Shown in pieces: positions 7,343-10,193 of a stretch of DNA of 44,978 nucleotides; the stretch's first letter is position 1; the number at the start of each line of letters is the position of its first letter. The notes beneath the pieces were generated by a model, which did not search any database, was not told the DNA's origin, and saw only the letters and a list, made by a program, of their open reading frames with translations. A program made the position numbers and the translations under genes. Source of the DNA: a bacterium TMED46 (GTDB taxonomy: Bacteria > Fidelibacterota > Marinisomatia > Marinisomatales > UBA1611); NCBI GenBank assembly GCA_002167345.2, contig NHCZ02000003.1, positions 1 through 44,978 of the forward strand. The letters run 5' to 3'.

Positions 7343-8626
7343 TCATAAAGCAGGCGTACCTAGCCAGAGTCCTATGAATAGCAAAACACCTGCAACACTA
7401 TGCATAGTAATGGTGCCCCAATTCGCAGGTTGTAAAAGTCTATCATTATAATATTTATATAATGTCTGGCTCGAGGTGACTCCGAAATAAGAAGCTAGAA
7501 GAGTAATCAAGATCAAAGAAGGGAAAGTTCCATTTAAGACCAGCAATAATACACTTAAAAAAGCACCTACAACTAATGAGACATAGCCAGCTCTTGCTCT
7601 CTCAGGACCAAAGACCACTATTAGAGTATTCTTACCAGTAGCTTTATCACTATCGTGATCGGGGAATTCATTGACATAAACAACAGCCGCTATTAGAAAT
7701 CCAATTGGTATCCCTGCGAAAAAAGCTTCTGGAAGAAGTTGCCCTGTCTGTACTAGGGTACTTCCAGCTACCATAAGAGGACCGAAATTCAGACCTATGA
7801 GCAGCTCGCCCAACCCTTTCCTAGATGAAAAACGAAAAGGTGGCGCGGTATAAAACAAACCCGATAAAAATCCAATTAATCCTAACCACAAGACCGGCAT
7901 ACCTGCTTTCAATATGAGCGGAATGCCAACAATAGCACTAAGTGCAAATGTTACAATAGCAACAGTGAGCATTCCTTTTGGGGTAATCAAACCCATTTGA
8001 ATACTCCTACTTCCTCCATTCAATCCAACATTGCTGTAATTATAGTTAAGAGCGTCTGTACCACTAATATGATCAAAATAATCATTAGATGTATTGGTTC
8101 CTATATGTAAAAGACTTCCACCAAGGACAGTCAAACCTAACCATGCCCAGTCTACGGGATAACCAGCATATTTGGCAACTGCAGCACCAACCAATATCGG
8201 AACAATCGTAGCAGATAAGAATGGTAAACGCATTATGACCATCCAGGTAAATAGCTGTGTCATAAAACTAATCTTTGGTCTTACTTCATCTGGCGTTTTA
8301 TCTTTCAGAAGAGTCGTTACACCACAATATCCAATATGCTCTCCATTATTTCCTTTTGTAGGTGTAATCTTGATACGGCAAGGTAACTCACTTCCATTTT
8401 TATGGATGAAGGCAGTATTGCCTTCCCACTTCCCTTTTTTAACAGATTCATCAAGCCAATTTATAACATGCCCAAGAACGATTTGCCCATCACTAAAATC
8501 ACTTACCCTCATCTTATTAACAACTTCTTCTCTGTTGTATCCAAATAGGGTTTCAGAACCATCACTAAATGTTTCAACCTTTCCATCTAAATCGCAGGTA
8601 ATTACACTTTTCATCTGGTCATTCAT
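7343..8626 (-). CDS. PAS domain fused to UbiA-type prenyltransferase (MenA-like)
   Basis: A 427-residue fusion. Residues 1 to about 110 form a PAS sensor domain: ITCDLDGKVETFSDGSETLFGYNREE is the typical PAS start, and WEGNTAFIHKNGSELPCRIKITP the later strands. Residues about 125-427 are a polytopic UbiA prenyltransferase with about eight or nine membrane segments. Its first Asp-rich motif is NDYFDHISGTD (181-191), and the second lies in NEFPDHDSDKATGKNTL. The overall pattern is closest to 1,4-dihydroxy-2-naphthoate prenyltransferases (menaquinone synthesis), but the substrate is not certain. The PAS part contains no obvious heme or flavin residue. The gene is last in the operon with the selenoprotein genes and the cyclase, 71 bp after the cyclase stop, and ends at a terminator. 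Both Asp motifs are intact, so it should be active. A PAS-regulated prenyltransferase is unusual. Confidence 0.88.
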   Translation of the reverse strand: MNDQMKSVITCDLDGKVETFSDGSETLFGYNREEVVNKMRVSDFSDGQIVLGHVINWLDESVKKGKWEGNTAFIHKNGSELPCRIKITPTKGNNGEHIGYCGVTTLLKDKTPDEVRPKISFMTQLFTWMVIMRLPFLSATIVPILVGAAVAKYAGYPVDWAWLGLTVLGGSLLHIGTNTSNDYFDHISGTDALNYNYSNVGLNGGSRSIQMGLITPKGMLTVAIVTFALSAIVGIPLILKAGMPVLWLGLIGFLSGLFYTAPPFRFSSRKGLGELLIGLNFGPLMVAGSTLVQTGQLLPEAFFAGIPIGFLIAAVVYVNEFPDHDSDKATGKNTLIVVFGPERARAGYVSLVVGAFLSVLLLVLNGTFPSLILITLLASYFGVTSSQTLYKYYNDRLLQPANWGTITMHSVAGVLLFIGLWLGTPAL

Positions 8627-8697: not shown

Positions 8698-9456
8698 TTA
8701 TGCAGTAGAGTAAAAAATAGGTCGACTAGGTGCTGCATCCAGACCCCAGTTTGGAATTTGTATCTGCAAAAAGCCAAATCCATCTATTACATCATCTGGA
8801 ATAAAGAGTAGTTCAGAAATGGTTTTTCCTTGTTTAAAGAATCTTTTATGATTTTCCAATTGCCCTCCATCATTTGCTTTATCAATAGAGGGGATATCCA
8901 CTAAAAGATGTTGGACACCTAAAGCATTAATATGATCAATGGCATCATTTGTAAAGAAGGGTGCAGGTTCTACATTGTAATCCCTTTTTTTCTTAGACAC
9001 ATTATTTGGGAGTGTCCTGATAATCAATGCATTATTAGGTTCCAGTGTATTTTTCTGCAGTTCATCTTTTGTGATCACCAGTTCATTCTTCATATCATAA
9101 TGATAAGATTCATTTGTCTTGTTTGCTTCCTGCAATTCCACTGAAGTCAACCACGCTGGAATCATACCCTTGGGGCAAACATCTGATATTTTTACTTCTG
9201 AATCTATTACGTGTGCAATTGATTCTGTATGGGTCCCCGTACAGTGTACATCTAAAGTGACAATAGGAACATTGCAGCTCCCCCCCTTTTTTATATCGCC
9301 AATAAAATCGCCAGATCTTAGAGCGTTCACTTGAGGTTTCTCTGCACCATAAAATATGGGACCACTACCTAAGAAATCATTTCTTATAGATAGGTCCACC
9401 CCTTCATGGGTATTAACATAATAGGTATTGGTGTTATGTTTAATTTCAGTGATCAA
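8698..9456 (-). CDS. Cyclase-family metal hydrolase (kynurenine formamidase-like)
   Basis: A 252-residue protein of the Cyclase family (PF04199 type), which includes bacterial kynurenine formamidase and isatin hydrolase. The metal-binding signature HxxGTHxExxxH is seen as HCTGTHTESIAH (residues 71-82). A later segment, HLLVDIPSIDKANDGG, matches the family's second conserved block. The first codon is TTG (9454-9456). The frame has no nearby ATG, so TTG, or a non-standard ATT one codon upstream, is the likely start. It begins 7 bp after the SelW-like gene and is co-oriented with it. The substrate is unknown; no tryptophan catabolism gene is nearby, so the formamidase role should not be assumed. 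Glu in place of the more common Asp in GTHxD is tolerated in the family. Confidence 0.8.
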   Translation of the reverse strand: MITEIKHNTNTYYVNTHEGVDLSIRNDFLGSGPIFYGAEKPQVNALRSGDFIGDIKKGGSCNVPIVTLDVHCTGTHTESIAHVIDSEVKISDVCPKGMIPAWLTSVELQEANKTNESYHYDMKNELVITKDELQKNTLEPNNALIIRTLPNNVSKKKRDYNVEPAPFFTNDAIDHINALGVQHLLVDIPSIDKANDGGQLENHKRFFKQGKTISELLFIPDDVIDGFGFLQIQIPNWGLDAAPSRPIFYSTA

Positions 9457-9463
9457 TATTGAA

Positions 9464-9688
9464 TTAACTCTGTCCTATTAGTTGCTCAATTTCACCCTGC
9501 TCAGGAAAACGGTTTAAAGCTTTTTTTGAAAATATCAGCTCTCCATTCAGGGTGACTTCGAATACACCTCCACCGCTTGAAATAAGCGAAACATTTATTT
9601 CTTGGAAAGTCTGTTTTAAGCTAGCCTCCAAACTGGAGGCTCTAGGAAGGTAGTTTCAATGGCTACAGTATTCAATGGTTACTTTCAT
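9464..9688 (-). CDS. SelW-like selenoprotein (Rdx family, CxxU) with in-frame UGA
   Basis: A 74-residue protein readable only if the TGA at 9656-9658 (codon 11) is selenocysteine. The N-terminus is MKVTIEYCSHU, giving the CxxU redox motif of the SelW/SelT/SelH (Rdx) thioredoxin-like family. The rest fits the fold without further breaks: a helix EASLKQTFQEI, strands VSLISSGGGVFEVTLNGELIF, and the family-typical SKKALNRFPEQGEIEQLI. The ATG is preceded by a good ribosome site (AGGTGA, 6 bases before). A bacterial SECIS-like hairpin follows the UGA. It lies 19 bp after the Sec-peroxiredoxin gene and 7 bp before the cyclase gene, so the three are likely co-transcribed. Its role is a small thiol/selenol oxidoreductase, possibly reducing the peroxiredoxin (inference). 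The alternative of a pseudogene with a nonsense mutation is unlikely given the position of UGA and the hairpin. Confidence 0.88.
9621..9645 (-). promoter_or_regulatory. Bacterial SECIS-like hairpin for the SelW-like UGA
   Basis: On the minus strand AGCCTCCA-GTT-TGGAGGCT forms a perfect 8-bp stem with a 3-base loop starting with G. The loop G lies 22 bases after the UGA. In known bSECIS elements a small apical loop with G in its first or second position lies about 16-37 bases downstream of UGA, within the coding sequence. This hairpin meets those rules and would recruit SelB for Sec insertion. Confidence 0.8.
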
Positions 9689-9707
9689 AAGCATTCACCT
9701 AATGTGT

Positions 9708-10193
9708 TTAGTTAAAAAATCTTAGTATATCTTTAGGATGGGTATGCAAATCAACATCATCAAAGATGTGAATTAATACTCCTTCTTTATTAATGAGAAA
9801 AGTTTTTCTTGATGGGAAAAAATAATATTTATTCACACCAAATGCCTTGCCCATTTCCCTTTTCGAATCAGATAGTAAATTGAAATTCAGATCATATTTT
9901 TTTTTGAATGATCTCAAAATGCTTTGGTCATCATAACTAATACCAAGTATCGATATATTATATTTTTCAAAATTCTTGTATTCATCACGGAACCCGCATG
10001 CCTGTCTTATTCATCCAGGAGTATCAGCCTTAGGAAAAAAATAAATAACTAAGTTATTGCCTTTGTAGTCATCAAGTTGATGCAAGTTTCCATCTTGGTC
10101 TACCAGTGAAAAGTTAGGCGCAGATTCACCAACATTTATGGTCGCTCCAAATAATGAGAATTTTAAAATGATTATAGGTAATATTTTTTTCAT
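9708..10193 (-). CDS. Selenocysteine peroxiredoxin, Bcp/PrxQ type, with in-frame UGA
   Basis: A 161-residue peroxiredoxin interrupted by one TGA (10011-10013, codon 61). Read through, the active site is PKADTPGU followed by IRQACGFRDEY. This aligns with the Bcp motif PKxxTPGC-T-x-QACGLRD, so Sec replaces the peroxidatic Cys while the resolving Cys five residues later is kept. Downstream, the thioredoxin-fold features are intact: ISILGISYDD, NLLSDSKREMGKAFGV, and KTFLINKEGVLIHIFDDVD with the H-P-K-D-I-L-x-F end. The N-terminus MKKILPIIILKFSLFGATIN looks like a signal or membrane anchor before ESAPNFSLVDQDG, suggesting an exported enzyme. It reduces peroxides or lipid hydroperoxides with an outside thiol donor. 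It is the first gene of the operon with the SelW-like gene. A frameshifted or dead gene is disfavoured because both halves are in the same frame. Confidence 0.88.
9983..10000 (-). promoter_or_regulatory. Bacterial SECIS-like hairpin for the peroxiredoxin UGA
   Basis: On the minus strand CAT-G-CGG-GTT-CCG-TG-ATG can fold into a short hairpin: CGG/CCG closing a GTT loop, then a small internal loop, then CAT/ATG. The loop G is 17 bases from its UGA, inside the known bSECIS range. The GUU loop is the same as in the SelW-like element. The stem is weaker than that one. Confidence 0.6.

Follow-up and report, generated by a model that had tools for sequence, protein, structure and literature searches.

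The question raised by this locus is whether a TGA triplet that interrupts a short reading frame is a stop codon or specifies selenocysteine (Sec). The frame occupies positions 9464-9688 of the window (the whole stretch of 44,978 nucleotides analyzed here) on the minus strand, and the triplet, which we take to encode Sec, is its eleventh codon (9656-9658, minus strand). An earlier note had proposed a hidden SelW-like selenoprotein gene at these exact coordinates without stating a strand; a plus-strand reading is ruled out by several stops. Translated from 9688 to 9464 with the TGA read through, it encodes a 74 aa protein, MKVTIEYCSHUNYLPRASSLEASLKQTFQEINVSLISSGGGVFEVTLNGELIFSKKALNRFPEQGEIEQLIGQS, followed by a stop. 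The lone TGA at codon 11 and the unbroken SelW-type remainder are as first described, but the TGA had been placed four residues from Cys8, while U11 is in fact three residues past C8, giving the CxxU motif C8-S-H-U11. The good ribosome site claimed for the gene is a Shine-Dalgarno sequence, AGGTGA (9695-9700, minus strand), 6 nt 5' of the ATG. A standard gene caller would indeed lose the active site, because without read-through the remnant could start only at a TTG at codon 20. In this sense the gene is hidden from such programs, but the family itself is not, as its occurrence in marine bacteria was already reported in 2005 (PMC1088965).

Profile searches place the read-through protein in the SelW family. 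It scores above the cut-offs of PF10262 (Rdx; 85.4 bits, cut-off 22.6), TIGR02174 (CXXU_selWTH, the NCBIfam model for SelT/W/H; 71.1 bits, cut-off 34.2) and NF041051 (105.3 bits, cut-off 88), and it carries its CxxU redox motif close to the N-terminus, as is characteristic of Rdx and SelT-SelW-SelH proteins. The match is not due to chance: the E-value against Pfam Rdx is 3.1e-24 for the read-through protein, and when the genome was searched in six frames with the same model, this locus was the single place of similarity (77 bits, E-value: 2.5e-21), with one TGA inside the match. The selenoprotein reading made in the earlier note is supported, since this check and the two others that the note recommended, on the Sec machinery and on the orthologues, all came out in its favor. 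Relatives with solved structures that can be detected by sequence (PDB 2fa8, 3dex, 2obk and 2oka, and selenoprotein W, 2npb) resemble the protein described here over almost all of its length. They differ from it in two respects: in 2fa8 and 3dex, Cys occupies the column of the predicted Sec (CxxC), and the chains are longer (96-117 residues, compared to 74 aa).

An in-frame TGA is a stop by default and the sequence comes from a draft genome (2.35 Mb in 56 contigs), so the simplest alternative is that the triplet is a real stop, marking either a pseudogene or a sequencing or assembly error in a gene for a Cys protein. However, the same TGA occurs at the same column far beyond this genome. An Rdx match was found in 130 of 200 relatives' genomes, with one TGA within the match in 127; the other three matches are fragments that start downstream of the motif. 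The codon at the Sec column was then counted at 110 loci, comprising 80 genome records (retrieved using peptide patterns that leave out the Sec column itself) and 30 loci from the host genome and its relatives. TGA is present at 106 of these loci and TGC at the remaining four, with no other codon observed; among the 80 genome records, which represent many phyla, 76 have TGA. The first Cys column of the motif is TGT or TGC, except at two loci where it too is TGA. Based on this conservation across genomes, and with the frame otherwise intact, we reject the pseudogene or error explanation as very improbable.

The two exceptional loci encode a UxxU motif and belong to a Desulfobulbaceae metagenome-assembled genome (L123, 3001-3210) and a Verrucomicrobiales metagenome-assembled genome (L110, 3001-3222). 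The former carries selB, and ten further members of its family show just one TGA; a selB search of the latter returned nothing above the cut-off. A UxxU motif has been reported in Trx-like 1 and Prx-like 2 proteins (PMC2398784). No SelW relatives were found in phage records. Four contigs from the IMG/VR viral collection (L161-L164) do encode SelW relatives, and these contigs may represent host DNA or provirus flanks.

A second line of evidence comes from RNA structure. A SECIS-like hairpin with an 8 bp stem and the apical loop GUU (GAGCCUCCA-GUU-UGGAGGCU) is located inside the SelW coding region (9623-9641, minus strand), its loop 22 nt 3' of the TGA. By itself, the folding energy only modestly beats that of shuffled sequences (z -1.3 to -2.0). 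In 103 distinct sequences, however, each of the five inner pairs is standard in 94 to 97% and the loop begins with G in 97%. One of the pairs (offsets 20/32) joins two codon third positions, those of an Ala codon and of a Glu or Ala codon four codons on; it is standard in 96% of the 103 sequences, with CG, TA, GC, AT, TG and GT all occurring. When third bases were shuffled within codon class, a mean of 62% and a maximum of 78% were paired, and none of 20,000 shuffles reached the observed 96%. These shuffles ignore the relatedness of the sequences, while controls in which the partner position was slid retain it and gave 34-67% paired. The pattern indicates selection on the hairpin at synonymous sites, with compensatory changes maintaining it, a further argument against a pseudogene. 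The hairpin agrees with the description of the bacterial SECIS as a stem-loop right after the UGA with a small apical loop containing guanosine (PMC1088965). A scan of the window against Rfam at gathering thresholds gave no match, so no curated SECIS family backs the hairpin, and the four Cys homologues recovered are too few to show that it is missing from genes without Sec.

The SelW gene has a neighbor of the same kind that is absent from the earlier note. Ending 19 bp upstream of the SelW start, on the same strand, is a 161 aa peroxiredoxin frame (9708-10193, minus strand) with an in-frame TGA at codon 61 (10011-10013, minus strand) in the motif TPGUIRQACGF, in which TPGU corresponds to the TxxU of Sec-containing peroxiredoxins at the peroxidatic site. 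The list of open reading frames of 80 aa and more is empty between 9456 and 10260, where this gene sits; a gene caller that treats TGA as a stop would not report it whole because of the TGA at codon 61. The protein matches PF00578 (AhpC-TSA) with 122 bits. It reaches the cut-off of no specific NCBIfam peroxiredoxin equivalog, the closest being Bcp/PrxQ (NF006960; 130.5 bits, below the cut-off of 140), and the label "PrxQ/Bcp-like" used here accordingly denotes closest kin by sequence without formal membership. From the anatomy of Bcp/PrxQ enzymes, we take codon 61 to be the peroxidatic position and C66, five residues later, to be the resolving Cys. All 20 close orthologues in the bacterial family have TGA at the position of codon 61 and a Cys five residues downstream.

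Past this TGA there is a weak SECIS-like hairpin (9983-10000, minus strand) that also has the apical loop GUU, with its loop 17 nt from the TGA; its energy is no better than that of shuffled sequences (z about +0.7), and several relatives fold otherwise. The N-terminus of the peroxiredoxin is hydrophobic, a feature that is conserved among its orthologues and lacking in SelW, which suggests that the enzyme is exported or attached to the membrane. Compared to known TxxU peroxiredoxin selenoproteins (PF00578 / COG1225), the TxxU motif and the AhpC-TSA domain are shared, whereas the hydrophobic N-terminus belongs to the protein described here. Other peroxiredoxin-like genes that each contain one in-frame TGA are present elsewhere in this genome (G000:C5:123855-124280) and at many places in the bacterial family, and the lineage seems to be rich in selenoproteins.

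Sec insertion would require dedicated machinery, and all four components for which the earlier note had recommended a search are encoded in the same genome. The selB (333 bits) and selA (498 bits) genes are adjacent on contig 6, about 24 bp apart, and a tRNA-Sec with the anticodon TCA was found by both Infernal and ARAGORN. The selD gene (364 bits; contig 46, G000:C46:85215-86141, L019) carries an in-frame TGA of its own (HGSGUACKIG), by which it is itself predicted to be a selenoprotein gene.

These genes also bear on two other ways of accounting for the open frames. The first is that TGA has been reassigned throughout the genome to Trp, Gly or another residue, since an open frame under an altered code does not by itself name the residue inserted. 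TGA is the ordinary stop for nine of the 26 large ORFs in the window, however, and therefore the code is not reassigned. Furthermore, the two TGA-interrupted frames of recognised family are both redox genes with the TGA at the active-site Cys column. Taken with the presence of selA, selB, selD and tRNA-Sec, this makes reassignment extremely improbable. The second is that read-through takes place at a low level, with the TGA mostly terminating translation or yielding another residue and the product largely truncated. The efficiency of Sec insertion is not readable from sequence, but a complete dedicated machinery, a conserved SECIS-like element and the almost exclusive use of TGA in place of Cys codons within this clade point to genuine use of Sec, and we give this explanation a very small probability.

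Based on these results, the locus almost certainly consists of two selenoprotein genes that form a unit, Prx(U)-SelW(U), in a member of Candidatus Marinimicrobia (SAR406). The UGA of each gene would be decoded as Sec by SelB and tRNA-Sec under the direction of a hairpin that closely follows the UGA and has an apical loop beginning with G. The nearest named records are from uncultured Candidatus Marinimicrobia or Neomarinimicrobiota (SAR406). Both TGAs and the gene order are recurrent in the bacterial family: in 19 of the 27 SelW-bearing genomes, a peroxiredoxin gene precedes SelW on the same strand at a distance of no more than 400 bp, and in 18 of these 19 the gap is within 60 bp. One close locus with a pair of the Marinimicrobia type comes from a record titled Chloroflexi (L059, NP954); this is probably a mislabelled bin or a case of transfer, and the title itself may be a misassignment.

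Directly 3' of SelW is a putative cyclase / arylformamidase-like gene (8698-9456, minus strand; PF04199) that is retained beside SelW in the close relatives L038, L051, L052, L053 and L056, and it is possible that this is the third gene of the cluster. Scans of promoter and terminator patterns gave results not above those for shuffled sequences. Elsewhere in the window (7343-8626, minus strand), an unusual fusion combines a PAS domain and then a UbiA/MenA-type prenyltransferase in one frame.

The two genes would be co-transcribed and share a role in defence against oxidative stress. The SelW-like protein would use its CxxU pair for redox chemistry on a thioredoxin fold, and the peroxiredoxin would reduce peroxides with U61 and resolve through C66 as in PrxQ/Bcp enzymes. 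The two proteins may be functionally linked. A direct redox relay from SelW to the peroxiredoxin is possible, but the case for it is weakened because the peroxiredoxin may be exported and SelW, which has no hydrophobic N-terminus, would be cytosolic. It is a more speculative proposal, and one that we consider rather unlikely, that Marinimicrobia use the pair as a dedicated selenium-based couple for peroxide detoxification, with SelW serving specifically to reduce or repair the peroxiredoxin.

Selenoproteins of both kinds are already known. In the Sargasso Sea survey of 2005, SelW-like proteins were the most abundant selenoprotein family and peroxiredoxins (TxxU) the second (PMC1088965), and SelW-like proteins were also at the top of the list in the GOS survey of 2008 (PMC2398784). 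The SelW described here does not differ in principle from these proteins, with which it shares the family, the CxxU motif, a bacterial-type SECIS within the coding region and an origin in marine bacteria; here the host, machinery and neighbors are identified. The GOS survey also reported ten reads in which selenoprotein genes for Prx and SelW are neighbors; the reads come from a single small phylogenetic group with an unnamed host, and a functional link between the two genes was left open (PMC2398784). These reads very likely represent the same arrangement, which is tied here to Candidatus Marinimicrobia genomes. Three SAR406 single-cell genomes appear in one table of a 2016 survey (PMC5029168). 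What is added to this earlier work is the host, its machinery, the family-wide gene order and the support that synonymous sites give to the SECIS.

The annotation of two neighboring genes that standard callers get wrong is corrected as a result, and the Prx/SelW pairing seen in unassigned ocean reads in 2008 gains a host phylum for which genomes, Sec machinery and the order of the genes are available. If SelW does prove to be the partner of a Sec-containing peroxiredoxin, bacterial SelW would gain a defined role, and the conserved pairing makes that role testable with a named partner.
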